Positions 34,428 through 60,066 of a stretch of 64,000 nucleotides of DNA are shown here, piece by piece. Source of the stretch: Actinoplanes lobatus (lineage in GTDB: Bacteria > Actinomycetota > Actinomycetes > Mycobacteriales > Micromonosporaceae); the NCBI RefSeq assembly GCF_014205215.1, contig NZ_JACHNC010000001.1, forward strand, positions 7,250,501 to 7,314,500, read 5' to 3'. The first letter of the stretch is position 1, and each line of letters begins with the position of its first letter. Both the position numbers and the translations under genes were made by a program. The notes below the pieces were generated by a model. The model did no database searches. It saw only the letters and a program-made list of their open reading frames with translations, and was not told where the DNA came from.

Positions 34428-36005
34428 GGAGCAGACGGCGTCGCACGGCACCACCGGCGTCTACAGCGAATCACCCCCGCGTGCGCGGGGAGCAGTATCC
34501 CCAGATCCCGAGGTAGACGTTCGCCACCGGATCACCCCCGCGTGCGCGGGAGCAGGCCTGGCGCCGGCGCGCCGAGTACGAGCGGCGGATCACCCCCGCA
34601 TGCGCGGGGAGCAGCGCTCCCGTACCGCGCGGAGTACGACCGCGGCCGGATCACCCCGCGTGCGCGGGGAGCAGCGTGGTGTATTCACGTGAAATCGTGG
34701 TGTCGTGGGATCACCCCCGCGTGCGCGGGGAGCAGTTGATCTGCGCACCTGGGCGGCCAGTTGCTCAGGGGTCACCCCCGCGTGCGCGGGGAGCAGACAG
34801 CCGAAACCACGGGGCTGATCAGCGCCTGGGGATCACCCCCGCGTGCGCGGGGAGCAGGGCGGTTTCGCAGCCGCAGGCCAGGCCGGTCCAGGGATCACCC
34901 CCGCGTGTGCGGGGAGCGGCGCATGACGTCGTCCATCCGCGGCCCCCACGCCGGATCACCCCCGCGTGCGCGGGGAGCAGCCCGGCCATCGCTGTATGAA
35001 ACGCCCTGGTCCGGGATCACCCCCGCGTGCGCGGGGAGCAGTGGCTCAGCTCAGGGTGTGCACGGATCACCCCCGCGTGCGCGGGGAGCAGTGGAAGGCG
35101 CTGCGGATGCTGCCGGAGCAGTCCGGATCACCCCCGCGTGCGCGGGGAGCAGTCCCACAGCATGTGCAGGCGGTCTTGGTACGCCGGATCACCCCCGCGT
35201 GCGCGGGGAGCAGGTAAGGCACACGACGATGCGACAGCAGCCCTCGGATCACCCCCGCGTGCGCGGGGAGCAGCCCGTGCTGGTGTCGGTGCACCAGATC
35301 CACGCCGGATCACCCCCGCGTGCGCGGGGGGCAGGCGGAGACCACCAGCCTCGCCGCCGCCAAGACGGGATCACCCCCGCGTGCGCGGGGAGCAGGAACG
35401 ACCCCTCCGACCCCCGACCTGGAAGAGAGGATCACCCCCGCGTGCGCGGGGAGCAGTCCTGCCAGTCCAGGACGAACCGCGGAGCGATGGGATCACCCCC
35501 GCGTGCGCGGGGAGCAGAACTTGGCCAGCAGCTGCGGGGTGACCTTGCCGGGATCACCCCCGCGTGCGCGGGGAGCAGGCGCAGGTGGGGGTCTTGTGCG
35601 ACACGGCATCGGGATCACCCCCGCGTGCGCGGGGAGCAGGCAGCGGGGCAGGTAGTCGATGTTGGTTTCGGCGGATCACCCCCGCGTGCGCGGGGAGCAG
35701 ATCTCCTGCGCCGTGAAGACGCCGAGTGACCGGGGATCACCCCCGCGTGCGCGGGGAGCAGGTCCGGGTAGACCTCGTTGCCGTCCGAGTCGTAGGATCA
35801 CCCCCGCGTGCGCGGGGAGCAGCTCGACGAACCCCCACTGCCCGTTCGGGTTGACGGATCACCCCCGCGTGCGCGGGGAGCAGACCGCTTGGCGGCCTTG
35901 TCGACCTGCTCGAGCAGGATCACCCCCGCGTGCGCGGGGAGCAGCTCCGCGAAGGGCGCGGGGTTGGCGCTTACCCGGGATCACCCCCGCGTGCGCGGGG
36001 AGCAG

Positions 36006-39352: not shown

Positions 39353-40605
39353 GTGAGTTTCGCGATCTCGTCCTGGATGGCCTGCACCGTCGGGTGCCCG
39401 GCGCCGTCGACGGCGATGCGGTCCTGCAGCAGGCTGTGCAACTGGCGCAACGCGCGGCTGTGTTCGCCGATTTCGGCGTGCAGGCGGATGGCGCGAAGGC
39501 GGTAATCAGCGACCGCGGCGTCCTGTTCACCGAACTGGGACGCGCGGCGGTCGGCGAGCTCTCGCCACTGCCGGGCGGCGGCTCGGGGATTCCCGGTGGT
39601 GGCCAACTGCTGGGCTCGGGCTTCGGCCTGCCTCGTCGCGAGATCAGGGTCGTCGTACTCGGCCGTTGTGGAATCTCGGGTCTCGTGATGGGCGGGTAAG
39701 GGCACCTGGCCGACCATCGCGGCGTACGCCCGGATCGCGTCCGGCTGGTCGCTGACCACGCCCGGAATCGGTGGCAGATTCCGGGCGAGCGGGGCCAGTA
39801 CCTCATACACGGCGGCTGCGCTGGGCGGACGGTCCTGCGGGTGCCGGGCCATCAAGGCGTGCACCAGGTCGTCGATGACGGCCGGGACTTCCGGGCGCAG
39901 CGCCGCCGGTCGCGGTGGGGACGTCTGCAGCTGATGCCACACCGTGGCCGTGGGGGTGGGACCGTCGAAGGGCGGGCGACCGGTGAGCAGGTCGAAGAGG
40001 GTGGCGCCGAGTCCGTAGAGATCGGTGCGGTGATCCGTGGGGCTGCCCTCGATCTGCTCGGGAGCCATGTAGCCGACGGTACCGAGACTGTCGCCGCTCT
40101 GGGTGATTCGGGAGTAGCGGTCGTCGCCGTGGATCGCGGCGAGGCCGAAGTCGAGGACCTTCACCGCGCCGCTGCGCTCCAGCATGGCGTTGCTGGGCTT
40201 GATGTCGCGGTGAACCAATCTGATCTGCCGGGCCGCGATCAGCACGCTGCTGATCTGTGCGCCGATCGCGGCCACCCAGCTGACCGGCAGAGGGTCGTGT
40301 TCCGCGATCAGATCGGCCAGGTCAATCCCCTCGATCCGCTGCATGACCATGTAGAAGCGGCCTTTGTGCTGGCCGAAGTCGTACACAGCCGGAACCCCCG
40401 GGTGTGCCAGGCGTGCGGTCAGCCGCGCTTCGCGCCGGAATCTTTTCGCCAGCGCGGCGTCCATCACGGACGAAGCGGTCAACTTGACGATCACCTGACG
40501 GTCGAGCACGGTGTCCCGTGCCGGCCAGACCTCGCCCATCCCCTGATGCGACAGGGGAAGGTGGTCGACTGCGTATCGGTCCTTGAGGCGCTCGCCCGCT
40601 ACCAC
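39322..40605 (-). CDS. Soluble serine/threonine protein kinase with a helical tail
   Basis: 427 residues. A Hanks-type kinase domain fills residues 1-275: ATP-site Lys in VIVKLTAS, catalytic VHRDIKPSN, metal-binding LDFGLAA, and APE motif GTVGYMAPEQIEG. The P-loop glycine pattern is weak (HQGMGEVWPA). Residues 310-427 are a TPR-like helical region (AARQWRELADRR...LRAIRLHAEIGEHSRALRQLHSLLQ) in place of the usual membrane helix and sensor, so it is cytosolic. It starts 181 bp from the divergent helicase-cas3 operon; a role in controlling the defence island is possible but only inferred. Confidence 0.88.
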   Translation of the reverse strand: MVAGERLKDRYAVDHLPLSHQGMGEVWPARDTVLDRQVIVKLTASSVMDAALAKRFRREARLTARLAHPGVPAVYDFGQHKGRFYMVMQRIEGIDLADLIAEHDPLPVSWVAAIGAQISSVLIAARQIRLVHRDIKPSNAMLERSGAVKVLDFGLAAIHGDDRYSRITQSGDSLGTVGYMAPEQIEGSPTDHRTDLYGLGATLFDLLTGRPPFDGPTPTATVWHQLQTSPPRPAALRPEVPAVIDDLVHALMARHPQDRPPSAAAVYEVLAPLARNLPPIPGVVSDQPDAIRAYAAMVGQVPLPAHHETRDSTTAEYDDPDLATRQAEARAQQLATTGNPRAAARQWRELADRRASQFGEQDAAVADYRLRAIRLHAEIGEHSRALRQLHSLLQDRIAVDGAGHPTVQAIQDEIAKLTQGGLDRSER

Positions 40606-40786
40606 GGGCTCACCCTAGCAACCAGCCCTGTCCACCCATTCGTCGTTGTCGCTTGCACGAAGGCTTGAAAACATAGTTCACAACTTGATTCTCCGTGTTC
40701 GCTGTGCAAGGGTCGGTCGCGGGCCACATAGGACACGCCTTGGACGGCGTGCCGGCCGACGGCGCCTACCGATCAGGGAGGGGTGT

Positions 40787-42859
40787 ATGGCCGACCTGGC
40801 CATCGACCGAGGGTTTCTGCCCGCCTTTGCCAAGCTGCAGCGGCCGGTACAGCATGCCGTGCTTGCCACCATCGACAAATTCGCCGAGCACACCCACGCC
40901 GGCCTCCACCTCGAGAAGCTCACCGCCGCACGGGACCCGAACATCCGGACCATCCGCATCGACCGGTTCTACCGCGGGGTGGTACTCGCCCTCGGAGGCC
41001 AGCGCTACGCACTGCTCAACGTGCTGCCCCACGATGACGCGAACGCTTTCGCCACAAGCCGGCTGTTCACCGTCAACCAGGTGCTCGGCGTCCTCGAGGT
41101 CCGCGACCAGGCGGGCATCGAGGAACTCACCCATGCCACCCCGCCACCGTCGGCCACGAGCCTGTTCGACCGGGTCTCCGCCGCGGATCTCCACAGCCTG
41201 GGCGTGGACAAGGACCTGATGCCGCTGCTGCGACTGATCAGCACCGACAAACAGTTGGACAGCCTGGCCGGCCTGCTTCCACCGGCCCAGTTCGACGTTC
41301 TGAGCGGTCTGGCCAGCGGAATGTCCAAGCAAGAGGTCTGGGAGGAGATGGCTGACCGCATCGTCGGCGACGTCGACCCGGACGACCTGTTCACCGCCGC
41401 CCAGCGCACCCCCGAGCGGATCGCCTTCGTCTCCGGCCCCATGGAGCTGGCCGCCATCCTCGCCCACCCGTTCGACGTGTGGCGCACCTTCCTGCACCCC
41501 ACCCAACGGGACGTGGCCTACCGGGAGACCTACTCCGGACCGGCCCTGATCACCGGCAGCGCCGGCACCGGCAAGACCGTCACCGGCCTGCACCGAGCGG
41601 TCTTCCTCGCCCGGCGGCTGCCCGACGACGGACCGAAAGTACTGCTGACCACCTACACCCGCTCCCTCGCCGACGCACTCGGCAAGCAACTGCGCCTGCT
41701 CACCGATGACCCCGCGGTCCTGCGCCGGATCGACGTGATCGGTGTGGACAAACTCGCCCACCAGATCGTCACCCGAGACGGCACAAAGGTCACCGTCGCC
41801 ACCGACACGATCATGGACCCGCTCTGGGAGGAAGCCGCCGCAGCCAGCCCTGCGTTCAGCGCCGCCTTCCTCAAACACGAGTGGGAACAGGTGATCCTGG
41901 CCCAGCAACTGACCACCGCCGACACCTACCGCGACAGCCCCCGCAAGGGCCGGGGCGCCGGGCTCCGCGCTGCCCAGCGCGACCAGGTCTGGACCGCGAT
42001 CGACGGGGTGGTCACCAAACTGGCCAAGCGGCGCCTGCGCACCCACACCCAGCTCGCCGACGAGGCGGCGGCCATCACCGCGCGCACACCGAGCCCTTAC
42101 CGGCACGTCATCGTGGACGAAGGCCAGGACCTGCACCCGGCACAGTGGCGGCTGCTACGCGCGCTCGTCCCCGCCGCGGACAACGACCTGTTCCTGCTCG
42201 CCGACCCCTACCAGCGCATCTACGACAGCCAGGTCTCGCTGACCCGGCTCGGCATCCCGGTACGCGGCCGGACCCGACGCCTGACCGTCAACTACCGCAC
42301 CACCCACGAAATCCTGGACCTGTCGGTGAAGGTCCTCAACACCGGCACCGTGTTCGGCCTGGACGACACCCCCGACACCCTGGTCGGCTACCGATCGGTC
42401 ACCCGCGGCGGCACACCACAGCTCACCACCCACCCCACCCGCGACGACGAGTTCGAAGCCCTGATCGAACGGGTCGGCACCTGGCTGGACCAGGGCGTCG
42501 AACCACACGCGATCGGCGTGGCCGCCCGCACCGGAAAACTCGTCAAGGCCATCACCACCACCCTGGCCGGCGCCTACATTCCGGTCGCCGACGACAAACA
42601 GGGCGCCGACGGCGTACGGGTCGCCACCATGCACGGCATGAAAGGGCTGGAATTCCGCTGCCTCGCCGTGGTCGGCCTGGACCTCGGAGTGCTGCCCGCC
42701 GCCAACGCGGTGACCCCCGCGGCCGACGATCCACACGCCCACCGGCAGGACCTCCAACGCGAACGCTGCCTGCTGTTCGTCGCCCTCACCAGGGCCCGCG
42801 ACGTGCTCTACCTGTCGCACAGCGGCCAGCCCAGCGAACTTCTCCCGGCACTGACATGA
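40787..42859 (+). CDS. UvrD/Rep-type helicase with RelE/ParE-like N-terminus
   Basis: 690 residues from the ATG at 40787 (GGGAGGGG upstream). Residues 15-95 match the RelE/ParE-like fold that begins a subfamily of UvrD-like proteins (HAGLHLEKLTAARDPNIRTIRIDRFYRGVVLAL, then LLNVLPHDDANAFA). The superfamily 1 motor follows: Walker A ITGSAGTGKTVTGLH, VIVDEGQDLHPAQ, NYRTTHEI, ATMHGMKGLEF and VALTRARD. It ends 9 bp before cas3 and is therefore almost certainly co-transcribed with it. Helicases of this class are not standard type I-E components. Confidence 0.88.
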   Translation: MADLAIDRGFLPAFAKLQRPVQHAVLATIDKFAEHTHAGLHLEKLTAARDPNIRTIRIDRFYRGVVLALGGQRYALLNVLPHDDANAFATSRLFTVNQVLGVLEVRDQAGIEELTHATPPPSATSLFDRVSAADLHSLGVDKDLMPLLRLISTDKQLDSLAGLLPPAQFDVLSGLASGMSKQEVWEEMADRIVGDVDPDDLFTAAQRTPERIAFVSGPMELAAILAHPFDVWRTFLHPTQRDVAYRETYSGPALITGSAGTGKTVTGLHRAVFLARRLPDDGPKVLLTTYTRSLADALGKQLRLLTDDPAVLRRIDVIGVDKLAHQIVTRDGTKVTVATDTIMDPLWEEAAAASPAFSAAFLKHEWEQVILAQQLTTADTYRDSPRKGRGAGLRAAQRDQVWTAIDGVVTKLAKRRLRTHTQLADEAAAITARTPSPYRHVIVDEGQDLHPAQWRLLRALVPAADNDLFLLADPYQRIYDSQVSLTRLGIPVRGRTRRLTVNYRTTHEILDLSVKVLNTGTVFGLDDTPDTLVGYRSVTRGGTPQLTTHPTRDDEFEALIERVGTWLDQGVEPHAIGVAARTGKLVKAITTTLAGAYIPVADDKQGADGVRVATMHGMKGLEFRCLAVVGLDLGVLPAANAVTPAADDPHAHRQDLQRERCLLFVALTRARDVLYLSHSGQPSELLPALT

Positions 42860-42868
42860 GGAACCGCC

Positions 42869-45700
42869 ATGGGACTGAGTGACGCGGCCCGCACGGTGTG
42901 GGGCAAGACCGACCGCACGGGTCTCTCCGTGGTCGGCTGGCTTCCCCTGTGGCGGCACCTCGCCGATGCCGCCGACGTGGCCGGCCGCCTGTGGGACCAC
43001 TGGCTGAGCCCCGCGGTCCGCCACCGCATCGCGGACGAACTGCCCGGCGGCGACACCGACGGCCGGACCCTCGCCGTCTGGCTCGCCGGCGTGCACGACA
43101 TCGGCAAAGCGACACCCGCCTTCGCCGTCCAGGCATCCTTCCGCGGCCAGACCGCCAACCTGGTACAGCGGATGCGCGACCGTGGACTCGACTTCGATCA
43201 TCAGCAAGTCTGCGACCAACGTCGGCAGGCCCGCCATGACGCCGCCGGTCACCTCGTACTCGCCGAATGGCTGCGCGAACGCGATTGGACCGATCCGCAC
43301 GCGTACGCCGTGGTCGTCGGCGGCCACCACGGCGTACCGCCAACCGACGAGGTGCTCAAGGGCATTCTGTGCCGCCGGTACCTGCTCGGTGACCAGGCAT
43401 GGCAGCAGGTACAGCACGAACTGCTGACCTGGATGACCGACCGAGCCGGCGCGGGAGACCGGCTCAGCGGCTGGGCCGATGCACGACTGTCACAACCGGT
43501 CCAGGCGGCCCTCACCGGACTCGTCATCGTCGCCGACTGGATCGCCAGCAACGAGAAATACTTCCCGTACCTTCTCGATGCCGCCGACGAGGACCGGCTC
43601 AAAACCGGATGGGAAGAAGTCGACCTACCCGTACCGTGGCTTCCCGCCCAGCCGCCGGCCGACGCGGCAAACCTGTTCTCCACCCGGTTCGCCCTGCCCT
43701 CCGGCGCGACGCCACGCCCGGTGCAGCAGACCGTCACCGAGGTCGCCACCAGCATGCCGACACCAGGAATGATCATCGTCGAAGCGGCCATGGGGGAGGG
43801 GAAGACCGAAGCGGCACTCGCGGCAGTGGAGATCCTCGCCCGCCGCACCGGAGCCTCCGGCTGCTACCTCGCGCTGCCCACCCGGGCCACCAGCGACGCC
43901 ATGTTCAGCCGCATGCTGTCCTGGCTGCGCCGGCTACCCGACACCCGGGTCGGCAGGGGAGACCGCGACGTACGACTCGCCCACGGCAAGGCCGCACTCA
44001 ACCCCGAATACGACCAACTGCGCCACACCTCCCTGGCCAGTGCCATCGCCGAAGACGACGGCGGCACCAGCATCGGCGTCAACAGCTGGCTGGCCGGATC
44101 GAAACGCAGCCTGCTCTCCAGCTTCGTCGTCGGCACCGTCGACCAACTGCTGTTCGCCGCGCTGCGCGGCAAACACCTGGTGCTGCGCCACCTCGGCCTC
44201 GCCGGAAAGGTCGTCGTCATCGACGAGGCCCACGCCTACGACGTCTACATGGGGCGCTTCCTCGACCGGGCGCTGGAATGGCTCGCCGCCTACGGCGTAC
44301 CGGTCGTCGTGCTCTCCGCCACCCTGCCCGCGCACCGCCGCGCCGAACTGCTGGCGGCCTACGACAACGGACGGCTCGGCCCACCACCCCCGCTCACCTG
44401 GCGAGACCGAGGCAAAACCAGAATCGATCCGTACGCCGCGGTGCGCACCGAAATGCGATATCCCCTGATCACCACCTCAGCCGACGGCCGCGGAGCCATA
44501 ACGACCAGCTGCGCCGACTCCGGGCGAGGCATCAAGGTACGGATCCGCCGTCTCGACGACGACCCGACCGCCCTGATCAACCTGCTCCGCGATCGGCTGC
44601 GCGACGGCGGCTGCGCGCTGGTCATCCGCAACACCGTCGCCCGCGTCCAGCAGACAGCCGAGTACCTGCGTACGGCACTCGGCCCGGACCTGCCCGTGTC
44701 GGTGGCGCACTCCCGGTTCATGGCGGTGGACCGGGCCACCAAGGACCGCTGGCTCGCCGCGACCTTCGGGCCACCGGGAACCGCCGAACGACCGCGCCGG
44801 CACATCGTGGTCGCCAGCCAGGTCGCCGAGCAGTCCCTGGACATCGACTTCGACCTGCTCGTCACCGACCTCGCCCCCGTCGACCTCGTACTGCAGCGCA
44901 TCGGCCGCCTGCACCGGCACCCCCGCGACGACCGTCCGGCCGCCGTCGCCGAGCCGACCTGCTGGATCACCGGAGCCGACTGGACCACCGAACCACCCCA
45001 ACCGGTCGCCGGCTCACGCCGGGTCTACCAGCCCGCCATGCTGCTGCGCAGCGCCGCCGTGCTCCTGCCACACCTGGACGGTGTGCCACTGCGACTTCCG
45101 GCCGACATCGCCGTACTCACCCAGGCCGCCTACGGCGACACCGAGGTGGGACCGCAAGCCTGGCAGCCGGCGCTGTCCGAGGCCGAGCAGAAACAGCGCG
45201 ACGCCTTCGTCGCCAAGGAACTGAAAGCCGACGGCTTCCGCCTCGCCGGGGTCGCCGAGCGCGGGGAACCGCTGATCGGCTGGCTCTCCGGCGGCATTGG
45301 TGACGCCGACGACAAGACAGCTCGCGGACACGTCCGCGACACCGACGGCGAAACCCTGGAGGTCCTGCTACTGGTCCGAACCGAGACCGGTCTGGTCATT
45401 CCACCGTGGATCGGCGGGGGCGGGGTAGCCGTACCCGTCAACAGCATGCCCCATTGGCGGCTTGCCCGGCAGATCGCCCGTTGCACCCTGCCCTTGCCCC
45501 GCTCGATGACGGCCACCGACGTCATCGACGACACCATCGCTGAGCTGGAGCGTCGAGTCGATGTCGCCGCCTGGCAAGACAGTCCTTGGCTGGCCGGGGA
45601 GCTGGTACTTGATATTGAGATTAACGGTCTCGCGCGGGTCGGTTCCTTCGATCTCCATTACGAATTTCATGAGGGCCTCCGGGTTTCGCGCCGTGATTAA
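42869..45700 (+). CDS. cas3: Cas3 helicase-nuclease, type I-E
   Basis: 943 residues. The HD nuclease part has VHDIGKATPAF (residues 69-79) and GGHHGVP near 151. The superfamily 2 helicase has EAAMGEGKTEAAL (about 308-320), VVIDEAHAYD, VLSATLPA and LQRIGRLHRHP. Cas3 is recruited by Cascade to unwind and shred the target strand. It stands apart from the casA-cas2 operon: 143 bp with a CRISPR-like structure separate its stop from casA, so its supply can be controlled separately. It is co-directional with the helicase gene 9 bp upstream. Confidence 0.97.
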   Translation: MGLSDAARTVWGKTDRTGLSVVGWLPLWRHLADAADVAGRLWDHWLSPAVRHRIADELPGGDTDGRTLAVWLAGVHDIGKATPAFAVQASFRGQTANLVQRMRDRGLDFDHQQVCDQRRQARHDAAGHLVLAEWLRERDWTDPHAYAVVVGGHHGVPPTDEVLKGILCRRYLLGDQAWQQVQHELLTWMTDRAGAGDRLSGWADARLSQPVQAALTGLVIVADWIASNEKYFPYLLDAADEDRLKTGWEEVDLPVPWLPAQPPADAANLFSTRFALPSGATPRPVQQTVTEVATSMPTPGMIIVEAAMGEGKTEAALAAVEILARRTGASGCYLALPTRATSDAMFSRMLSWLRRLPDTRVGRGDRDVRLAHGKAALNPEYDQLRHTSLASAIAEDDGGTSIGVNSWLAGSKRSLLSSFVVGTVDQLLFAALRGKHLVLRHLGLAGKVVVIDEAHAYDVYMGRFLDRALEWLAAYGVPVVVLSATLPAHRRAELLAAYDNGRLGPPPPLTWRDRGKTRIDPYAAVRTEMRYPLITTSADGRGAITTSCADSGRGIKVRIRRLDDDPTALINLLRDRLRDGGCALVIRNTVARVQQTAEYLRTALGPDLPVSVAHSRFMAVDRATKDRWLAATFGPPGTAERPRRHIVVASQVAEQSLDIDFDLLVTDLAPVDLVLQRIGRLHRHPRDDRPAAVAEPTCWITGADWTTEPPQPVAGSRRVYQPAMLLRSAAVLLPHLDGVPLRLPADIAVLTQAAYGDTEVGPQAWQPALSEAEQKQRDAFVAKELKADGFRLAGVAERGEPLIGWLSGGIGDADDKTARGHVRDTDGETLEVLLLVRTETGLVIPPWIGGGGVAVPVNSMPHWRLARQIARCTLPLPRSMTATDVIDDTIAELERRVDVAAWQDSPWLAGELVLDIEINGLARVGSFDLHYEFHEGLRVSRRD

Positions 45701-45774
45701 AACCCCCGCCTGACGCGGGGAACCTACCTGCATGCAGGGATTTAAAGGATCACCCCTCATTGGAGGGAATCGGC
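45701..45774 (-). ncRNA. Candidate Cas-regulating guide RNA (degenerate mini-CRISPR)
   Basis: On the minus strand, a degenerate repeat (45747-45774) keeps the last ten bases of the real repeat, GGGGTGATCC, which become the crRNA 5' handle, after a CCCTC/GAGGG hairpin. Next come one base and a 20-nt pseudo-spacer TTAAATCCCTGCATGCAGGT (45726-45745), then a second degenerate repeat (45701-45725) with TTCCCCGCG and GCGGGGG arms. The guide matches the casA upstream site (see 45799-45821) at 15 of its first 17 positions, mismatching only at 6 and 12. Known family: CreR-type RNAs. Expression is not shown here. Confidence 0.75.
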
Positions 45775-45798
45775 TGACGAAAGGTTTTCATCAATGGG

Positions 45799-45821
45799 CT
45801 TTGCATACAGGGTTTTAACTT
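45799..45821 (-). promoter_or_regulatory. Predicted Cascade target upstream of casA (PAM AAG plus partial protospacer)
   Basis: The minus strand reads AAG followed by TTAAAACCCTGTATGCAAAG. AAG is the standard type I-E PAM, and the following bases pair with the mini-CRISPR guide at 1-5, 7-11 and 13-17. The site lies 23-45 bp upstream of the casA start. TTGCAT (45801-45806) and TATGTT (45835-45840) are the best promoter-like boxes around it. Binding would block casA transcription. Confidence 0.72.
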
Positions 45822-45843: not shown

Positions 45844-47505
45844 GTGGCGGGTTTGGCAACTGTGAGTAACTCTCGAGTGTTCACTCTGGCGGATGAAACC
45901 TGGATTCCGGTCCTGGATGGGGCTTGTAGGCGGCGTGAGGTTTCCGTGCGCGGGCTGTTCGAGCAGTCCGCTGAGATCCGCATGATCGCCTGCGAGTTGC
46001 CCACGCAGACGTTTGCGATCCTGCGGCTGGCCCTGGCGATCCTGCACCGCGTTACGAACGGCCCACCCAATGAAGCTGCCTGGCAAGCCCTCTGGCGAGA
46101 CCGGCGACTGCCGCTGGACGACCTGACCGACTACCTCGACACGTTCCGCGACCGGTTCGACCTGTTCCACCCGCGACACCCCTTCTATCAGGTAGCCGAC
46201 CTGAGAGCCGAGAAAGACAACACGTACGGCCTCGAGCGGCTCATCGCCGATGTGCCCAACGGCATGCCGTTCCTGACCACCCGGGCCGGCCCGGGTATGG
46301 AATCGATCTCTCCTGCCGAGGCTGCCCGGTGGCTGGTGCACTGCCAGGCGTACGACCCGGGCGGCATCAAGACCGGGGCAGTCGGTGACATCCGGGTCAA
46401 GAAGGGCAAGGGCTACTCGATCGGCGTCGGCACGCTCGGCAACCTCGGCGGCGTCTACCTGGACGGCAATACGCTGCGAGAGACGCTGCTGCTCAACCTG
46501 CTGCCCTTCGGTGGAAACCGGCAGCGGGCCGACGACCGAGATCTGCCGGTATGGGAACGCGAACCGCAGACCGCCGCCGAGGAACCCGACGAGACACGCG
46601 GCCCGTACGGCCTGCTCAGCCTCTACACCTGGCAGTCCCGCCGGATCAGGCTGTTCGGTGATGCCGACGGCGTCACCGGCGCGATGATCGCCATCGGTGA
46701 CCGGCTCGACTGGCAGAACCACCACCTGCTGGAACCGATGAGCGTCTGGAGCCGCAGCGCACCCCGGGAACGCGAACAGAAGCTGGCCCCGATCTACCTG
46801 CCCCGCCCGCACGACCACACCCGCACCCTGTGGCGAGGGCTGCAAACCCTGCTACCCCCGCCGGCGCCGTCCACCGGCGAAGCACCGCAACGCTGGTCGC
46901 CGCTGGTCCTGCAGTGGCTAGCCCGGCTGACCCGCGACGCTGTGATCGGCCAGGACTTCCAGGCCCGGCCCCGCGCGGTCAGCGTCACCTACGGCACCCA
47001 ACAGGCGGTCATCGACGAGGTCTTCTCCGACACGCTGACCATGAACGTCCTCCTGCTGCTCGAAGACTCCCCACTACGGACCACAGCCGTCGACGCCACC
47101 GCCGACGCCGAGGCGGCCGTCCAAGCACTACGGCGACTCGCCACGAACCTGATCCGGGCCGCCGGCGGCTCCGACGACAGCGGCGACGCCGACCGCGCGG
47201 CCGAGCGCGCGTACGCCGTACTCGATCGGGCTTTTCGTGATTGGCTCGCCCACCTCGGACCCGACAGCGAACCGGCGACCGAGCGCACTGCATGGCAGCA
47301 CCGAGTGCGTCGCGCCGTTAAGGAGGTCGGCGATGAGCTGGTCGACGCGGCCAGCCCGGCCGCCTGGGTCGGCCGCACCAGAACCGACCGCAACGGACGA
47401 GACATCCACTACTCCAGCTTCCAGGCCGAAACATGGTTCCGCCGGGACCTTGCCAAAGCGCTGACCCTCACCACCGACACCGACCACCAGGAGGTACGAG
47501 CGTGA
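45844..47505 (+). CDS. casA: Cascade large subunit Cas8e (CasA/Cse1)
   Basis: 553 residues; GTG start at 45844 (a later GTG at 45862 would give the more usual short start and cannot be excluded). The N-terminus FTLADETWIPVLDG and the middle segment LNLLPFGGNRQRADDRDLPVWE are typical of Cse1, which recognises the PAM, holds the target DNA open and recruits Cas3. The C-terminal helix bundle is present. First gene of a run of seven cas genes joined by 4-bp or 1-bp overlaps. Confidence 0.95.
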   Translation: MAGLATVSNSRVFTLADETWIPVLDGACRRREVSVRGLFEQSAEIRMIACELPTQTFAILRLALAILHRVTNGPPNEAAWQALWRDRRLPLDDLTDYLDTFRDRFDLFHPRHPFYQVADLRAEKDNTYGLERLIADVPNGMPFLTTRAGPGMESISPAEAARWLVHCQAYDPGGIKTGAVGDIRVKKGKGYSIGVGTLGNLGGVYLDGNTLRETLLLNLLPFGGNRQRADDRDLPVWEREPQTAAEEPDETRGPYGLLSLYTWQSRRIRLFGDADGVTGAMIAIGDRLDWQNHHLLEPMSVWSRSAPREREQKLAPIYLPRPHDHTRTLWRGLQTLLPPPAPSTGEAPQRWSPLVLQWLARLTRDAVIGQDFQARPRAVSVTYGTQQAVIDEVFSDTLTMNVLLLLEDSPLRTTAVDATADAEAAVQALRRLATNLIRAAGGSDDSGDADRAAERAYAVLDRAFRDWLAHLGPDSEPATERTAWQHRVRRAVKEVGDELVDAASPAAWVGRTRTDRNGRDIHYSSFQAETWFRRDLAKALTLTTDTDHQEVRA

Positions 47506-48149
47506 CGACGACAGACGCCCCGGCCGACACACCGGTGCGCACCGCGAGACCGAGACGGCGCACCGCGCTCGGCGACCACGTCGCACGCACCGTCGGCAGC
47601 CTCCAGGCCCGGCTGCTGCGCGACCCTCCACAACCACAGGCCATCAGCGCCCTCGCCCGGCTACGCCGCGTCATCGGCCACGAACCCGGCTTCGACTACA
47701 CCCTCGAGGACTACCTCTCCGTCCCGGACGAACTGCTCAACACCCGGCAGATCGACCCGGCCACCGACCAGGACCACGCCGTCCACGACGCGGTCAGCCT
47801 GTACGCCCTGCACCAGCAGTCACGCCGCGAACGGATGCACATCGACGGCCGCGGACTCGGCCGGGCCGTGGCCGAACTCGCCCACGCCTCAGCCGGACCG
47901 GACGGCATCCGCCGCCGCTTCGCCGCACTCGGCACCGCTAGCAGCTACCACGAGAGCATCCACCACCTGCGCGGCCTGATCACCATGCTGCGCGGCCACC
48001 AGATCCCCCTCGACTACGGCCTGCTCGCCGACGACCTGCACACCCTGCGCCGCCCCGGCGGCCGGCAGCGGGTGCAGGCCATCTGGGGACGCGAATTCTT
48101 CCGCAGCCGGCCGCAACCCACCGACAACTCCGAGGAGACGCCAGCATGA
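47502..48149 (+). CDS. casB: Cascade small subunit Cse2 (CasB, Cas11)
   Basis: 215 residues from the GTG at 47502, which overlaps the casA stop (GTGA). The helical core includes ALARLRRVIGHEPGFDYTLEDYL and VHDAVSLYALHQQSRRERMH, then the conserved RRFAALGTASSYHESIHHLRGLITMLRGHQIPLDYG. Cse2 forms the belly of Cascade and steadies the R-loop. The first 30 residues are a disordered Thr/Arg-rich extension. Confidence 0.94.
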   Translation: MTTTDAPADTPVRTARPRRRTALGDHVARTVGSLQARLLRDPPQPQAISALARLRRVIGHEPGFDYTLEDYLSVPDELLNTRQIDPATDQDHAVHDAVSLYALHQQSRRERMHIDGRGLGRAVAELAHASAGPDGIRRRFAALGTASSYHESIHHLRGLITMLRGHQIPLDYGLLADDLHTLRRPGGRQRVQAIWGREFFRSRPQPTDNSEETPA

Positions 48150-49270
48150 ACCGCGCCATCATCGACGTCTACGCCCTGCACACCGTCCCGCCGAGCAACC
48201 TCAACCGCGACGACACCGGCTCACCGAAGACCGCCGTCTACGGCGGTGTCCGCCGGGCCCGGGTGTCCAGCCAGGCATGGAAGCGGGCCATCCGGCTGGC
48301 CTTCAAGGACCTGCTCGACCCCACCGAACTCGGCGAGCGCACCAAACGGGTCGGCGAATCCCTGGCGGTCCGCATTCAGGCCCTCGACCCGAACCTGTCC
48401 GACGAGACCGCCGCGACCATGGCTGCCGAGGTATTCGTCACGGTAGGCCTCGCCAAGGCCGACAAGAAGAAGACCGAGGTGAAGTACGTCGAATCCGGCT
48501 ATCTGCTCTTTCTCAGCCACCAGCAACTGGACAACCTAGCCGCTGCCGCACTCGACGCCGTCAACACCGGCACCCCACTGGACAAGAACCGGCTCAAGGC
48601 GCTGGCGAACAGCGACCACTCGGTGGACATCGCCATGTTCGGCCGGATGGTCGCCGACATGACCGACATCAACGTCGACGCCGCCTGCCAGGTCGCCCAC
48701 GCCATCAGCGTGCACGCCGTCGACAACGAGTTCGACTACTTTACCGCCGTCGACGACCGCAAACACGACATGGCCGAGACCGGCGCCGGCATGATCGGCA
48801 CCATCGAGTTCAACTCGTCCACCCTCTACCGGTACGCCACCGTCGACGTGAACGCCCTACACGAAACGCTCGGCTCCGCGCCGGCCGCAGTGGCCGCGGT
48901 CAAGGCGTTCCTCACGGCCTTCGCCCGCAGCATGCCCACCGGCAAACAGAACACCTTCGCCCACCGGACCCTGCCTGACGCGCTCGTCGTACGGCTCCGC
49001 GACACGCAGCCGATCAACCTGGTGGGCGCGTTCGAGACTCCCATCCGCGAAACCCACGAGGCCGGACGGATCAAACTGGCCGCGGACGCCCTCGCCGACC
49101 ACACGGTCGCGGTCGAGAACGCCTACGGCGAACAGCCGGTGGCGAGCTGGGTCACCCGCGTCGGCGACCAGACCGCAGCGCTGGCCGACCTCGGCAAGTC
49201 CACCACCCTCGGCGAACTGGTCAACGAGGTCGCGGAACAGGTAGGCCTGGCTCTCGGACAGCCCGCATGA
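48146..49270 (+). CDS. cas7: Cascade backbone Cas7e (CasC/Cse4)
   Basis: 374 residues, ATGA overlap with casB. Starts MNRAIIDVYALHTVPPSNLNRDDTGSPKTAVYGG followed by RVSSQAWKRAIR, the RRM-fold signature of Cas7e; the thumb and conserved FDYFTAVDD and STLYRYATVDV strands are present. Six copies line the crRNA and flip out every sixth base, which matters for reading the mini-CRISPR guide between cas3 and casA. Confidence 0.97.
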   Translation: MNRAIIDVYALHTVPPSNLNRDDTGSPKTAVYGGVRRARVSSQAWKRAIRLAFKDLLDPTELGERTKRVGESLAVRIQALDPNLSDETAATMAAEVFVTVGLAKADKKKTEVKYVESGYLLFLSHQQLDNLAAAALDAVNTGTPLDKNRLKALANSDHSVDIAMFGRMVADMTDINVDAACQVAHAISVHAVDNEFDYFTAVDDRKHDMAETGAGMIGTIEFNSSTLYRYATVDVNALHETLGSAPAAVAAVKAFLTAFARSMPTGKQNTFAHRTLPDALVVRLRDTQPINLVGAFETPIRETHEAGRIKLAADALADHTVAVENAYGEQPVASWVTRVGDQTAALADLGKSTTLGELVNEVAEQVGLALGQPA

Positions 49271-49968
49271 CCGTCCTGGTTCTCAGACTCGCCGGCCCGC
49301 TCCAGTCATGGGGCTCGTCCAGCCGCTTCGCTCGCCGCGGCACCGACATCGCACCCACGAAAAGCGGTGTCATCGGCATGCTCGCGGCCGCCAAAGGAAT
49401 CCGCCGTACCGAGCCGCTCACCGAGCTCCTCGGCCTGAAATTCGGCGTCCGCCTCGACCAGCCGGGCCAGATCCTGCGGGACTTCCAGACCGCCCGGTCC
49501 CTCGACGGGCGAGCCAGCGCCCCACTGACCTACCGCTTCTACCTGTCCGACGCGATCTTCCTCGCCGGAGTCCACGGCGACCCGGCGCTGCTCCACGACC
49601 TGGCCGAGGCACTCAAGCGTCCCCGATACCCGCTCTATCTAGGACGACGATCCTGCCCACCGGCCGGCCCGGTCAGCCTCGGCGTCCACGACATCACCCT
49701 CGACGACGCCCTGGACTCGTGGCCCTGGCTGGCATCGGAACGCTTCCGGCGCCGCGCCGCCCCCACCGTCCGGCTGGAAGTCGTCCGCGACGCCCGCCCC
49801 GGCGAACCCAGCGCGGAAACCCTGCCCGACGAGCCGGTCAGCTTCGACCCCGCCCACCGGCAGCACACCTGGCGCTCCGTGCTGCGCCGCCACGTGGACG
49901 TCCCCAACGACCTCGCGGAACGGGCCGGCGTAACCGACCACGACCCGTTGAGCCTGCTCGGAGGATGA
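49267..49968 (+). CDS. cas5e: Cascade Cas5e (CasD)
   Basis: 233 residues, ATGA overlap with cas7. MTVLVLRLAGPLQSWGSSSRFARRGTDIAPTKSGVIGMLAAA is the Cas5 signature; PLYLGRRSCPPAGPVSLG is the conserved second block. It binds the 5' handle of the crRNA. Confidence 0.96.
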   Translation: MTVLVLRLAGPLQSWGSSSRFARRGTDIAPTKSGVIGMLAAAKGIRRTEPLTELLGLKFGVRLDQPGQILRDFQTARSLDGRASAPLTYRFYLSDAIFLAGVHGDPALLHDLAEALKRPRYPLYLGRRSCPPAGPVSLGVHDITLDDALDSWPWLASERFRRRAAPTVRLEVVRDARPGEPSAETLPDEPVSFDPAHRQHTWRSVLRRHVDVPNDLAERAGVTDHDPLSLLGG

Positions 49969-50654
49969 GCATGTTCCTCACCCGATTCCCGATCAACCCG
50001 GCCCGCCGCGGAGCCCGCAAACTGCTCGCCTCTCCGCAGGCCATGCACGCCGCGGTCCGGGCCGGATTCGCCGATCCCGCCGACTACCAACGGCCTGATA
50101 GCCGCACCCTCTGGCGACTCGACACCCCCGCCCCCGCCACCGTCCACCTCTACCTGATCAGCCCCGGTCGCCCCGATCTCACCCACCTCGTCGAACAGGC
50201 CGGCTGGCCGACCACCGCCACCTGGGACACCCGCGCCTACGATCCGCTGCTCGCGACGCTGCGACCCGGCCAGCGCTGGGCCTTCCGGCTCACCGCCAAC
50301 CCGGTCCACAGCGGCCGCAAAACCCCGGACACCAAGGAGACCCAGCGATTCGGCTACCTCCGAGCCGAAGAGCAGGAACAATGGCTGCTCCAGCGTGCCG
50401 CCCGATGCGGATTCACCGTGGCGACGCAACAGGACGGCCGGCCCAACCTGCGCCTGCATCAACGGCAGACCCAGAGCTTCAAACGCGGGACACAACCGGT
50501 CACGCTGACCACGGTCACGTACGACGGCGTTCTGGACGTCACCGACGGCCAAGCCTTCCGCACCGCCCTGACCAGCGGTATCGGTCACGCCAAGGCCTAC
50601 GGCTGCGGCCTGCTCACCCTCGCCCCAGCCGACGGGGCAGCGACCGGAAGATGA
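49965..50654 (+). CDS. cas6e: crRNA-processing endonuclease Cas6e (CasE)
   Basis: 229 residues from an ATG overlapping the cas5e stop (a second in-frame ATG lies 2 codons later). The start MFLTRFPINPARRGARKLL, with the candidate catalytic His in SPQAMHAAVRAGF (position 29), and the C-terminal glycine-rich loop GIGHAKAYGCGLLTLAP define Cas6e. It cuts the repeat hairpin and stays bound to the 3' end of the crRNA. Confidence 0.96.
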   Translation: MSMFLTRFPINPARRGARKLLASPQAMHAAVRAGFADPADYQRPDSRTLWRLDTPAPATVHLYLISPGRPDLTHLVEQAGWPTTATWDTRAYDPLLATLRPGQRWAFRLTANPVHSGRKTPDTKETQRFGYLRAEEQEQWLLQRAARCGFTVATQQDGRPNLRLHQRQTQSFKRGTQPVTLTTVTYDGVLDVTDGQAFRTALTSGIGHAKAYGCGLLTLAPADGAATGR

Positions 50655-51604
50655 GTTCCTCCGGGGTGCCACCCGCCGACATCGCCGACCTCAGCCGAGC
50701 CGAGGACCGCATCAGCTTCCTCTACCTCGAACGCAGCGTCATCCACCGCGACAGCAACGCGATCACCGCTACCGACGACCGCGGCGTCGTACACATCCCG
50801 GCCGCATCTATCGGAGTCCTCCTGCTCGGACCCGGCACCAGCATCACCCACCAAGCAATCGCCCTGCTCGCCGACCACGGCGCCACCGCCGTCTGGGTCG
50901 GCGAGCGCGGCGTGCGCTACTACGCCCACGGACGCTCCCTCGCCTCCTCCAGCCGGCTACTGATCGCCCAAGCCGCCGCCGTCAGCCACCGAAACCGGCG
51001 GCTGGCGGTGGCCCGAACCATGTACGCGATGCGCTTCCCGGGCGAGAACACGACCCACCTGTCGATGCAACAACTACGCGGCAAAGAAGGCGCCCGCGTC
51101 CGGCGGATCTACCGCGAACACTCCCAGCGAACCGGTGTGCCCTGGAACCAACGCGCATACGACAAGGCCGACTTCACCGCCGGCGATCCGATCAACCAGG
51201 CGCTGTCCGCTGCCCACGCCTGCCTGTACGGGATCGTGCACGCGGTCATCGTGGCCGTCGGAGCGTCACCCGGCCTCGGATTCGTCCACACCGGCCACGA
51301 ACGAGCCTTCGTATACGACATCGCCGACCTCTACAAAGCGGAGATCACCATTCCGGCCGCCTTCGACCTGATCGCCGAAGGCTCGACCGACATCAGCGCC
51401 GACACCCGCCGTCGAGTACGCGATCGCGTACACGACGGAGCCCTACTGGAACGGTGCGTGCGAGACATTCGCATGCTGCTGCTTCGGCCCGAACACGGCG
51501 GCGAGATCGAGGAGGACGACGATTCCGTCCGGCTGTGGGACGAGGGCGGTTTCGAGGTCACGGCCGGCCGCAATTATGCCGACGTCGGCGACGTGGACTT
51601 CTGA
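50651..51604 (+). CDS. cas1: Spacer-integration nuclease Cas1e
   Basis: 317 residues, ATGA overlap with cas6e. The metal-binding residues are in place: Glu in LRGKEGARVRRIYREH, His in GFVHTGHERAF and Asp in VYDIADLYKAE. Starts with DLSRAEDRISFLYLERSVIHRD as in Cas1e. It integrates new spacers with Cas2. It is the only cas1 in the window and must serve all three arrays unless copies exist elsewhere. Confidence 0.97.
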   Translation: MSSSGVPPADIADLSRAEDRISFLYLERSVIHRDSNAITATDDRGVVHIPAASIGVLLLGPGTSITHQAIALLADHGATAVWVGERGVRYYAHGRSLASSSRLLIAQAAAVSHRNRRLAVARTMYAMRFPGENTTHLSMQQLRGKEGARVRRIYREHSQRTGVPWNQRAYDKADFTAGDPINQALSAAHACLYGIVHAVIVAVGASPGLGFVHTGHERAFVYDIADLYKAEITIPAAFDLIAEGSTDISADTRRRVRDRVHDGALLERCVRDIRMLLLRPEHGGEIEEDDDSVRLWDEGGFEVTAGRNYADVGDVDF

Positions 51605-51960
51605 TGACCGTCATCATTCTCACCGCCTGCCCACCAGGGCTGCGAGGGCACCTCACCCAATGGCTGCTGGAGATCTCCGCCGGCGTGTACGTCGGCCACA
51701 TCAGCACACGAGTCCGCAACCGCCTCTGGGCGCGGGTTGTCGACATGGCCGGGCCCGGACGAGCGCTACTGGTCTACCAGAAGCGCGGCGAGCAGAAGCT
51801 CTCCTTCGAGGTACACGACCACCACTGGGAACCGGTCGACCTGGACGGCGTGACACTGATCCGCCGTCCCGGAAACGCACCGTTCAATCCGGCAGCTCCG
51901 ACCGGCTGGAGCAAGGCCGCCAAACGCCGCCGGTTCGGGCGCCCCGGCCGTCCAGCGTAG
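51604..51960 (+). CDS. cas2: Cas2e
   Basis: 118 residues; its ATG shares a base with the cas1 stop. The start MTVIILTACPPGLRGHLTQWLLEISAGVYVG and RVRNRLWARV are typical of Cas2e, the structural partner of Cas1. The basic tail AAKRRRFGRPGRPA is unusual in that its last 15 codons, with the following leader, also occur before array 3 (58083-58196). Confidence 0.97.
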   Translation: MTVIILTACPPGLRGHLTQWLLEISAGVYVGHISTRVRNRLWARVVDMAGPGRALLVYQKRGEQKLSFEVHDHHWEPVDLDGVTLIRRPGNAPFNPAAPTGWSKAAKRRRFGRPGRPA

Positions 51961-51974
51961 GCTGTACCCAGCGA

Positions 51975-52028
51975 GAGCAAGTGAACAAAATCCAGGATCC
52001 TGATCTTTAACGCTGCAGGTCAATTAGT
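51975..52028 (+). promoter_or_regulatory. Leader of CRISPR array 2
   Basis: AAGTGAACAAAA, TGATCT and GCAGGTCAATTAGT in order, ending at the first repeat. It starts 14 bp after the cas2 stop and shares its blocks with the other two leaders. Confidence 0.9.
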
Positions 52029-54010
52029 CTGCTCCCCGCGCATGCGGGGGTGATCCCCACCTGTCCGCGGTCGTCGACAACCCGGAACGCTGCTCCCCGC
52101 GCATGCGGGGGTGATCCCCGACGTGGATGACGGTGGCGATCGCCGCTGACCTGCTCCCCGCGCATGCGGGGGTGATCCGTGTCGTTGATCTGACTGTACG
52201 AATGGCCGAACCTGCTCCCCGCGCATGCGGGGGTGATCCCCGCTACGTGACGATCGTGGGCCCGTCCTACGACTGCTCCCCGCGCATGCGGGGGTGATCC
52301 CTGGCGCAACGTCGGCCTCGCGATGCGGTGGGCCTGCTCCCCGCGCATGCGGGGGTGATCCGGTGGAGCGCATGACTTCTGCCAGTGAAGGGACCTGCTC
52401 CCCGCGCATGCGGGGGTGATCCCGGTTCTCACAATCAATTCGTCTCACCCCCTCTCTGCTCCCCGCGCATGCGGGGGTGATCCGGAGCTGCGTGATCGAG
52501 GCCGGTTGCACGAGATCTGCTCCCCGCGCATGCGGGGGTGATCCGACGCGGATCAGTTCGGGCAAGAAGTCATAGCCCTGCTCCCCGCGCATGCGGGGGT
52601 GATCCCCAGATCCCGGCCATCCCCGGCGGCGAAGGCGGCTGCTCCCCGCGCATGCGGGGGTGATCCGGCGATGATCCTGGCCGACCTGCGCGGCCCGCTC
52701 TGCTCCCCGCGCATGCGGGGGTGATCCGCTACACCGGGGGACGGCGCGCCAACGGACTACCTGCTCCCCGCGCATGCGGGGGTGATCCCTCTCCCGGCGT
52801 GTCGCAGGATCGCCACCGTAACTGCTCCCCGCGCATGCGGGGGTGATCCTCAGAATGCAGACCCGACCCGTCCGGAACGCCACTGCTCCCCGCGCATGCG
52901 GGGGTGATCCCTCCTACGGCGGCGCCGACGTCTCCGCTGGCCGCTGCTCCCCGCGCATGCGGGGGTGATCCGTCCACACCGAAGGTGGCGGGCTGGTCGA
53001 ACGCCTGCTCCCCGCGCATGCGGGGGTGATCCTTCGAGTGGGCACCGGTGGCCGAACGATCCGGCCTGCTCCCCGCGCATGCGGGGGTGATCCCTTCGGC
53101 AAGAGCGCGTCGAAGCCGAAGTTCATCTGCTCCCCGCGCATGCGGGGGTGATCCGGTGCCCGCGTTCGGGTTCGGCACGAACTGGTCCTGCTCCCCGCGC
53201 ATGCGGGGGTGATCCTCCAGGGGGCGTGTTGTCAGTGCTCACGGGTCACTGCTCCCCGCGCATGCGGGGGTGATCCGGTGTCTGACCTATCCGGACAGAA
53301 AGTGGCCCCCTGCTCCCCGCGCATGCGGGGGTGATCCCGCCAAACGGTACGCCAATACCGTGCACTACTCCTGCTCCCCGCGCATGCGGGGGTGATCCGT
53401 CGACGTACCGGAAGACGATGTGGGTCAGGCCCTGCTCCCCGCGCATGCGGGGGTGATCCGGCCATGGAGGCCTGCGGGTCGTCGGACTTAGCCTGCTCCC
53501 CGCGCATGCGGGGGTGATCCGTTCCGCGCGGGTGTGCAGCCGCATCAGGAAACCCTGCTCCCCGCGCATGCGGGGGTGATCCCGCGCCGGGCCTGATCGT
53601 GGTGGTGGGCCAACCCTGCTCCCCGCGCATGCGGGGGTGATCCTGGGCGGGGTGGTGTCTGCGGGCGCCGAGTCCACTGCTCCCCGCGCATGCGGGGTGA
53701 TCCCGCGCCGGCCTTGACGACCTCGGCATCGGCGAGCCTGCTCCCCGCGCATGCCGGGGGTGATCCCTGACCGCCTACACCGTTCGGATACTGTGCGACC
53801 TGCTCCCCGCGCATGCGGGGGTGATCCCGGCAAGAACGCGTGTTCAGCGAGGAACCACCGCTGCTCCCCGCGCATGCGGGGGTGAACCCACCGGTCAGTG
53901 GGTCACGGCGAACGAGGTCACCTGCTCCTTTCACATGCAGGGGTGATCCGGCCACATGCGCGCCGACATCTACATCCGGGTCCTGTTCCCCGCGCACACG
54001 GGGATGATCT
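52029..54010 (+). CRISPR. CRISPR array 2 (type I-E), about 33 repeats
   Basis: 28-bp repeats starting CTGCTCCCCGCGCATGCGG and ending GGTGATCC, with 32-33-nt spacers, read rightwards from the leader behind cas2. All repeats have CATG at the loop, where arrays 1 and 3 have CACG. The first 27 are identical. Near the far end they decay: one base missing at about 53676, one extra at about 53738, GAACC at about 53861, then two strongly altered copies (about 53922 and 53983). A last trace may lie at 54041. Confidence 0.98.
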
Positions 54011-58082: not shown

Positions 58083-58127
58083 GCCGCGAAACGCCGCTGG
58101 CTCGGAGGTCCCGGCCGCCCAGCGTAG
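58083..58127 (+). pseudogene. Remnant of a second cas2 3' end
   Basis: The last 15 codons of cas2 (51916-51960) recur here with a few changes: AAKRRWLGGPGRPA and a stop, followed by the same GGCTGTACCC trailer and the leader. Upstream similarity to cas2 stops. So array 3 once lay behind a second cas2, or a cas2-tail, leader and repeat segment was copied here. Confidence 0.8.
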
Positions 58128-58142
58128 GCTGTACCCCAGCAA

Positions 58143-58196: not shown

Positions 58197-59689
58197 CTGC
58201 TCCCCGCGCACGCGGGGATGAGCCCAACATCAGCGAGCACTGCACGGACTCCAACTGCTGCTCCCCGCGCACGCGGGGATGAGCCCGAGCCGACCGCCAG
58301 CGTGCGCCTGTCAATCGTCTGCTCCCCGCGCACGCGGGGATGAGCCCTGACCGATGAGGCTGCCGCGCTCGGACTGGCTCTGCTCCCCGCGCACGCGGGG
58401 ATGAGCCGGCGGGTATGCAGCGGGCGAACGCCAAGGCCGCCTGCTCCCCGCGCACGCGGGGATGAGCCGGGAACCTGGTCGTCGCCGGGAACATCACCAT
58501 TCTGCTCCCCGCGCACGCGGGGATGAGCCCACAAACCAGTCCATGCAGGCGATCCGGCGAGCCTGCTCCCCGCGCACGCGGGGATGAGCCCGGCGTCTCG
58601 CCGGCCCGGGACCGCGGTGCCGACTGCTCCCCGCGCACGCGGGGATGAGCCGTGGTCGGCGATCTTCCCGGGAATGGTCTTCAGCTGCTCCCCGCGCACG
58701 CGGGGATGAGCCTCACTCTCCGCAGTCACTGGGCTGGCCGGTCGACTGCTCCCCGCGCACGCGGGGATGAGCCGCTGAATCCGTCGGTCAAAGACCCGAA
58801 CAAAATCTGCTCCCCGCGCACGCGGGGATGAGCCACGTCCAACCACGGGGCCGTTTCTTGAACGGATCTGCTCCCCGCGCACGCGGGGATGAGCCGGTCG
58901 CGAAGCTGATCACCGACCCCCGGCCGGGCTGCTCCCCGCGCACGCGGGGATGAGCCGGATCATGGAGCACGCCCACCACACGCTCGGCCCTGCTCCCCGC
59001 GCACGCGGGGATGAGCCTACGGAGTGACCAGCACATGACCCAACCCATCACTGCTCCCCGCGCACGCGGGGATGAGCCCACCTGACCGGCCCGTACCGGG
59101 TTGCCGACGTGCTGCTCCCCGCGCACGCGGGGATGATCCGTACTGGTCGGTGGTGCGGCCCAGCAGCTGCAGCTGCTCCCCGCGCACGCGGGGATGATCC
59201 CACGAGGTTCGCGACGCCGACCGGGTGCTCACCCTGCTCCCCGCGCACGCGGGGATGATCCTGCGGAACACTCGGCCCGGCAGGTCCGGGTCATCTGCTC
59301 CCCGCGCACGCGGGGATGATCCGTCGAGCGAGTCGCCGGAGGTGTTGGAAACCAGCTGCTCCCCGCGCACGCGGGGATGATCCCCGTGCGCCGCTGGGAC
59401 CGGCTCGGCCGCCGGTCTGCTCCCCGCGCACGCGGGGATGATCCCTTCTTCGCGCTGACGGAGACCCGCTGCGAGCCCTGCTCCCCGAGCACGCGGGGAT
59501 GATCCGGTGGCGGATCCCGCGCCCGCGGCGGTAGCCAGCCTGCTCCCCGCGCACGCGGGGATGATCCCTCTGGCTCGGGGCGCGGCCTGCTCAACGGGCC
59601 CTGCTCCCCGCGCACACGCGGGGGTGATCCCTGTTTGGAGGTGAGCAGGCCATCCTGGACCTCCTGCTCCCCGCGCACGCGGGGAGCAG
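58197..59689 (+). CRISPR. CRISPR array 3 (type I-E), forward part, about 25 repeats
   Basis: 28-bp repeats starting CTGCTCCCCGCGCACGCGG with 32-33-nt spacers. The first fifteen (58197 to about 59051) end in GATGAGCC, the next group (from about 59111) in GATGATCC. The unit at about 59600 is two bases longer (CACACGCGG) and ends GGTGATCC, and the last one (59664-59689) is a hybrid that starts as a forward repeat and ends as a reversed one. Confidence 0.98.
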
Positions 59690-60066
59690 GACGGCCCGCA
59701 TCGCGACAACGACCGTTGCCGGGGGGATCACCCGTCCGCGCCCCGCGTGCGGGGAGCAGTTCCTGATCAAGCGGGAGCTGACTGGGGGAGTGCGGTTCAC
59801 CCCGCGTGCGCGGGGGAGCAGATGAGAACGAAAATTGTTTCCATCAGGCCCATAAGGATGACCCCCGCGTACGCGGGGAGCAGTGAACGTGCTGGATCGC
59901 GGCGAGGACGGCCAGGGGATCACCCCCGCGTGCGCGGGGAGCAACTCCACGGTACGGCAGCCGTGACAGATGATGATGGATCACCCCCGCGTGCGCGGGG
60001 AGTAGGAGGCCCGCACCGACAAGACCGCGACGGGCAACGGATCACCCCCGCGTGCGCGGGGAGCAG
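59664..60066 (-). CRISPR. Reversed tail of array 3, about 6 degenerate repeats
   Basis: From the hybrid repeat on, all units are in the opposite orientation: a damaged one at about 59725-59759, then about 59794, 59856, 59917, 59978 and 60039-60066. The best copies equal the array 1 repeat exactly. No leader-like sequence follows 60066, so this part has no promoter of its own at that end. Confidence 0.93.

Follow-up and report, generated by a model that had tools for sequence, protein, structure and literature searches.

A degenerate mini-CRISPR lies on the minus strand in the gap between cas3 and casA of the type I-E locus of Actinoplanes lobatus. Its guide matches a site beside a PAM just upstream of casA, and complementarity between guide and target upstream of a cas gene is maintained in relatives. 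Judged from these sequences, the element very probably encodes a CreR-type RNA that guides Cascade to repress its own putative casA promoter.

Anatomy of the element and its locus

The positions of the element and of the surrounding genes are given in Table 1; the window is the whole stretch of 64,000 nucleotides that was analysed. Two decayed repeats flank a short guide on the minus strand, an arrangement described in the earlier note and borne out base by base. The note had also claimed that repeat 1 keeps an exact handle and a hairpin, and both are present: a 5-bp hairpin (CCCTC-CAAT-GAGGG, arms 45767-45763 and 45758-45754) stands directly before an intact 7-nt handle, GTGATCC (45753-45747). 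This handle is also the most frequent one in the arrays of the window itself. A single extra base (T, 45746) separates it from guide position 1. Repeat 2 scores as terminator-like (hairpin 45721-45703, 1 found versus 0.5 expected from shuffles) because its kept hairpin runs on into TTTTAATC. Immune arrays have near-identical repeats and spacers of about 32–33 nt; the element, in contrast, has two divergent repeats and a guide of about 20 nt. Folding energies by themselves are not significant (z of -0.99, -1.56 and -1.49), Rfam gave no match for the mini-CRISPR element, and a sigma-70 scan found no promoter on either strand around it.

Table 1 Features of the type I-E locus in the window, ordered by position
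Feature	Position	Strand	Remarks
cas3	42869..45700	+	HD, helicase and Cas3_C domains
Repeat 2 (decayed)	45725-45701	minus	7-bp hairpin kept; T-rich tail instead of a handle
Guide	45745-45726	minus	TTAAATCCCTGCATGCAGGT; position 1 = 45745; about 20 nt
Repeat 1 (decayed)	45774-45747	minus	GCCGATTCCCTCCAATGAGGGGTGATCC
Target (protospacer)	45818-45802	minus	TTAAAACCCTGTATGCAAAG; 5' of casA; identical to the guide at positions 1-5, 7-11, 13-17
AAG, PAM	45821-45819	minus	directly 5' of the target
casA/cse1	45844..47505	+	start GTG 45844 or 45862; upstream region carries the target
casB/cse2	47433..48149	+	ORF; actual start probably later
cas7e	48146..49270	+	PF09344
cas5e	49267..49968	+	
cas6e	49938..50654	+	PF08798; expected to cut at the handle
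cas1	50651..51604	+	
cas2	51454..51960	+	ORF containing PF09707; actual start later
CRISPR array 1	52029..54010	+	repeat CTGCTCCCCGCGCATGCGGGGGTGATCC
CRISPR array 2	58197..59690	+	handles mostly ATGAGCC / ATGATCC

Guide and target are identical at 15 of the 15 bases in positions 1-5, 7-11 and 13-17 and differ at 6, 12 and 18; the gapless match next to AAG that had been reported from the letters therefore holds at every read position. The next-best sites for the guide in the 760-base region reach 10 of 15. Across the whole 10.4-Mb genome the pattern AANTTAAANCCCTGNATGC, allowing up to two mismatches, has two sites, the target (no mismatch) and the guide itself (two mismatches). By a rough estimate, the probability of a chance in-register AAN site within 200 nt that matches the complete seed (the ten bases at guide positions 1-5 and 7-11) is about 1e-5.

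The PAM is separated from the first casA start codon by 22 bp, and the target from repeat 1 by 27 bp. These spaces leave no room for a separate toxin gene in the window, which makes it very unlikely that the element is a toxin guard of the CreTA/CrePA type, in which the guide represses a toxin and not the cas genes. What speaks for such a guard is that CreA elements share the same anatomy, as described in the available parts of the publications on them, and that loci of a second type I-E clade have a small ORF separating the target from casA (see below). In 10 of the 12 loci printed the target lies 19–47 nt 5' of the extrapolated casA start; no consensus promoter was found there, and our -35/-10 scan of 15 loci gave no consistent promoter element.

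The type I-E operon of the window is complete (cas3, casA, cse2, cas7e, cas5e, cas6e, cas1 and cas2, followed by the arrays). The arrays have 28-nt repeats with a 61-nt period. Comparison of the array 1 spacers with phage records, made with regard to the PAM, returned one record (50% of the query, 67% identity) and was not informative. Further minus-strand repeats of the I-E type occur at 32505-32718, 34466-34495 and 59740-60066, as short arrays and a lone copy. The end of cas2 and the array leader are duplicated, with copies at 51916-52060 and 58083-58228 (about 87–88% identical), the latter before array 2. Directly upstream of cas3, positions 39841-42859 hold a 275-aa ORF without a Pfam match and a UvrD-like helicase gene. 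The helicase ORF is 9 bases from the cas3 ORF, an arrangement in which cas3 may be co-transcribed with both.

Guide and target in related loci

The regions upstream of casA were surveyed in samples of the family, the order and the class, in the whole genus, in the genus of G191 and in named genomes, together with 40 further upstream regions. The 174 casA loci among the matches listed gave 152 distinct upstream regions. Elements were defined without regard to any target, and on the minus strand only, as a hairpin, a [GA]TNNNCC handle and a second hairpin starting 15–39 nt on. A looser handle rule had been used earlier; it was dropped because many of its hits were chance-like and because it also gave 132 hits in 5 x 112 mononucleotide-shuffled regions. 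Rows L011, L015, L035 and L051, in which the handle is not of the right form, were not counted as mini-CRISPRs.

The target-blind definition picked 36 mini-CRISPR-like elements in 34 of the 152 regions. At an AAN-preceded site on the same strand of their own region, 25 of the 36 matched at least nine of the ten seed bases and 20 matched all ten. As a control, guides were compared with foreign regions, where only 10 of 5,436 pairs reached at least nine and 2 of 5,436 reached ten. The survey loci are related to each other and thus not fully independent. The target-blind survey and the cross-locus control together lead us to reject a chance match as the explanation. Eleven elements have no site at 9/10 or better. 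Two of these are one genome counted twice (L127 and L165), with an 8/10 site at the expected place, and the remaining nine are provisionally taken to be chance hairpins. L030 deviates, with a seed of 9/10. The same kind of element is found beyond the family, for example at L041 (order) and at L076 and L150 (class). Strains that carry it include M. okii, M. parva and A. solisilvae.

The register of the match is sharply defined. When the start of the guide was shifted from -10 to +10, perfect seeds were obtained in 20 of the 36 elements at offset 0, in two at +6, in one at -10 and in none elsewhere; the +6 cases are L001 and L174, in which the reading starts one block further on. Skipping base 6 gave 20 matches, versus 4–8 for any other base. 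All 20 perfect same-strand matches at 1-5/7-11 are preceded by AA. The third PAM base at the 28 sites with at least 9/10 after AA is C in 14, G in 10 and T in 4, and it is never A.

Mismatches at positions 1-17 were counted in 17 non-redundant pairs, chosen with the same weight for each of the 17 positions, and number 0, 1, 1, 0, 0, 11, 0, 0, 4, 0, 0, 11, 1, 5, 9, 5 and 6. Position 6 differs from the rest of 1-11 with a Fisher p of 7e-10 when positions are taken as independent. Best hits without AA or below 11/17 were left out of this count, as were guides that are at least 13/17 alike; 35 of the 36 elements reached 11/17, and 24 of these 35 had AA. The filter also lost some likely true elements, for example L030, L056 and L150. 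These 17 natural guide/promoter pairs record the bases that Cascade would read in living cells, with positions 1-5 and 7-11 nearly fixed and positions 6 and 12 free. Within positions 1-12, the commonest mismatch besides those two is at position 9 (4 of 17 pairs: L016, L127, L146 and L162). A separate observation is that the target of L026 has a one-base deletion exactly at position 6, and the five-base blocks on either side of it match.

These regularities bear on the idea that the minus-strand RNA is a plain antisense to the casA leader and acts without Cascade. The guide would indeed pair with the leader if transcription starts upstream of 45802, but pairing between two RNAs does not explain AAN at 20 of 20 perfect matches, and it leaves the drift at the sixth and twelfth bases and the kept Cas6e-type handle unexplained. 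We consider plain antisense action extremely unlikely.

Coupled change of guide and target is apparent in two groups of homologous loci. Across L017, L101 and L102 (Micromonospora), guide and target undergo the same changes at positions 3, 8, 10 and 13, and positions 6, 12 and 15-17 are not coupled. Across L027, L028, L161 and L162, coupling is seen at positions 1, 3 and 11; position 6 is constantly G in the guide and T, C, A and G in the target, and there is drift at 9 (one locus), 12, 13, 15, 16 and 17. The two groups give seven coupled read positions in total, and 6 and 12 are never among them (L026, which is close to L028, was left out of this count). A lack of co-variation in related loci had been named beforehand in the earlier note as a refuting result, and co-variation was found: different guides match their own sites, and the co-varying loci keep the handle-plus-one/AAN register and drift at 6 and 12. 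On this comparison of sequences, the co-varying pairs support the note's reading of the element as a CreR-type autorepressor.

The same comparison separates this reading from one in which the similar stretches are direct operator repeats for an ordinary repressor protein and the repeat-like hairpins are incidental. The two copies do point the same way at a distance of about 70 bp, and a 12-bp palindrome, CCTGCATGCAGG, lies in the guide's 3' part; by inspection, however, this palindrome is absent from the target and from the other 11 guides printed. An operator site is expected to be conserved between loci, whereas the site found here differs by locus and follows the local guide. Handle and stem are also retained. 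Because the sequences vary from locus to locus while the handle-plus-one/AAN register, the PAM and the skipped sixth base stay the same, operator repeats are disfavoured to the point of being highly improbable, and the argument made against them earlier from the PAM, the handle and the 6-base period is upheld across loci.

Repeat origin, distribution and a second clade

The handle of the mini-CRISPR was compared with the main array handles in the 27 genomes whose fetched stretch includes an array (31 were tried, of which 4 had no array there). It is identical in 12, one base off in 10 and at least two bases off in 5, in a comparison that includes weaker elements (for example L052, L134 and L152) and favours resemblance, since the script took only handles of the given form. 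A stem of at least 5 bp ending at the handle is present in 21 of 23 elements chosen by handle and target with stems ignored, compared with 16% of the 1,351 handle-like sites used as controls. When foreign arms with a different 3' arm were combined, 27 of 374 combinations paired; for own arms the figure is 21 of 21, by construction. The stems before the handle are thus preserved with different bases among the elements.

Such preservation is hard to reconcile with a dying CRISPR remnant that has no present function and whose spacer is self-derived by accident. In favour of a remnant are the decay of both repeats, the absence of the element from many relatives and the weaker matches in some others; against it, guide and target change together at the read positions and the stems pair with new bases. 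The odds of a functionless remnant are accordingly very slim. The CreR-type reading agrees with the distribution of the element, which is linked to a long cas3-casA gap. Among the 41 distinct loci whose casA is at least 50% identical, the gap measures 143–545 nt in every one of the 14 that have the element and at most 61 nt in 24 of the 27 that lack it (gap lengths are from mechanical ORF calls, element labels were assigned by us, and 3 of the 27 are partial casA matches). Long gaps without an element occur in L015 (701 nt) and L018 (338 nt), among the 26 of 27 element-less loci with a called gap. A scan over 4 kb for a mini-CRISPR farther upstream, made in 19 of the 27 loci from named genomes where none precedes casA, gave a single weak hit (L107, seed 9).

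In a casA tree the element is present in 8 of 8 outer rows and 6 of 30 inner rows, which corresponds to at least seven changes; the tree was made by a quick method, has 15 of 39 inner branches open and leaves out the three partial casA matches. Related pairs, such as L102/L007 and L016/L160, differ by the whole stretch before casA. The simplest reading of these sequences is that the element is old and would have been lost with the stretch before casA as casA and cas3 became closely coupled.

A second type I-E clade (L129, L166 and L174; L139, L143, L144, L146, L147 and L154) has a casA that is about 33–37% identical. Here about 410–580 nt separate the CreR-like target from the extrapolated start of casA, and a small ORF of 88–138 aa lies in this space. 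In L129, L166 and L174 the small ORF has a winged-helix-like start (weak similarity), and in L139, L143, L144, L146 and L154 it has a membrane-helix-like stretch and a basic tail. Membrane-helix-like stretches are found in 6 of 8 small proteins before casA in this clade. One homologue search with a small ORF of the clade returned the query's own record alone, and Pfam gave nothing above the cut-off. The ORF possibly encodes a CRISPR-repressed small protein. A broader scenario, which we regard as speculative and rather unlikely, is that actinobacterial I-E systems hold an old CreR lineage that has been re-specified by coordinated change of guide and promoter and repeatedly deleted with the stretch before casA, and that the guide of the second clade controls the small protein, which might be a new membrane toxin or signal under CRISPR repression. 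If this is true, the small protein of the second clade would be switched on together with the cas operon whenever Cascade is lost or inhibited.

Proposed mechanism and known systems

We propose that a minus-strand transcript of 45774-45701 would be cut by Cas6e just behind hairpin 1, or else trimmed, and so yield a short crRNA-like RNA that starts at its 5' end with the handle GTGATCC(T), continues with about 20 guide bases and ends in a hairpin. Cascade carrying this RNA would recognise AAG and pair with the target through positions 1-5, 7-11 and 13-17, guide bases 6 and 12 being flipped out during pairing. Bound upstream of casA, the complex would block transcription of casA-cas2, and the match is probably too short for cutting by Cas3. 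Because the repressor would be Cascade itself, casA-cas2 would be held low and de-repressed on a shortage of Cascade. By analogy with reviews of other CreRs, expression may rise when Cascade is scarce, occupied by ordinary crRNAs, or inhibited.

CreRs, the cas-regulating RNAs of Liu et al. 2023 (Cell Host Microbe, as cited in PMC13131331, PMC12737573 and PMC12948488), are described in the available parts of these articles as mini-CRISPR-derived RNAs that are partly complementary to a cas promoter and use the Cas effector as a repressor, in type I-E systems among others (PMC13131331), with release by crRNA competition and by anti-CRISPR proteins (PMC12737573). As in those descriptions, the element is a degenerate mini-CRISPR inside a cas locus with a PAM-adjacent seed match upstream of a cas gene. 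Unlike the CreRs in the excerpts available, it belongs to an actinobacterial I-E system, lies between cas3 and casA and is known here from sequence alone.

The rules of pairing are those given for haloarchaeal CreA in the available text of PMC8501985, where repression of a promoter by Cascade and a degenerate mini-CRISPR RNA depends on guide positions 1-5 and 7-11 beside a PAM. Bases 6 and 12 could be changed freely in CreA mutants and the other ten could not, and matching double mutants restored function (PMC8501985, same text). The element resembles the CreA of CreTA, as far as PMC8501985 and PMC9458426 were available, in its two degenerate repeats, its short guide and its 1-5/7-11 seed next to the PAM. 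It differs in that CreA, according to those texts, represses an RNA toxin, whereas the site here is upstream of casA, where a toxin gene would not fit. The window and most element-bearing relatives follow the CreA rules, and release has been described for CreRs; therefore, the element was assigned to CreR.

Autorepression of Cas9 by a natural single-guide RNA (cited in PMC10651486) is similar in that, according to the available part of PMC13131331, a Cas effector acts as the repressor of its own genes and the repression is lifted by anti-CRISPR proteins. It differs in being a type II system and in having no mini-CRISPR. The natural single-guide RNA is said to derive from a long tracrRNA. Standalone-repeat mini-arrays whose spacers are partly complementary to cas promoters, notably that of cas8, were reportedly described by Shmakov et al. 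2023 (NAR).

CreR is thus a kind of regulator that is already known, also in type I-E according to the available part of PMC13131331. This analysis adds quantified guide/promoter pairs that co-vary in actinobacterial I-E systems, and it ties the element to a long cas3-casA gap. Titles and abstract openings among the matches listed contained no description of the element in Actinoplanes or Micromonospora. As read from these loci, actinobacterial type I-E systems, including those of Actinoplanes and Micromonospora, apparently have a built-in brake that depends on Cascade and acts on their own expression. Loci that have the element and loci that lack it form matched material on the effect of autorepression on immunity and on the response to anti-CRISPR proteins.
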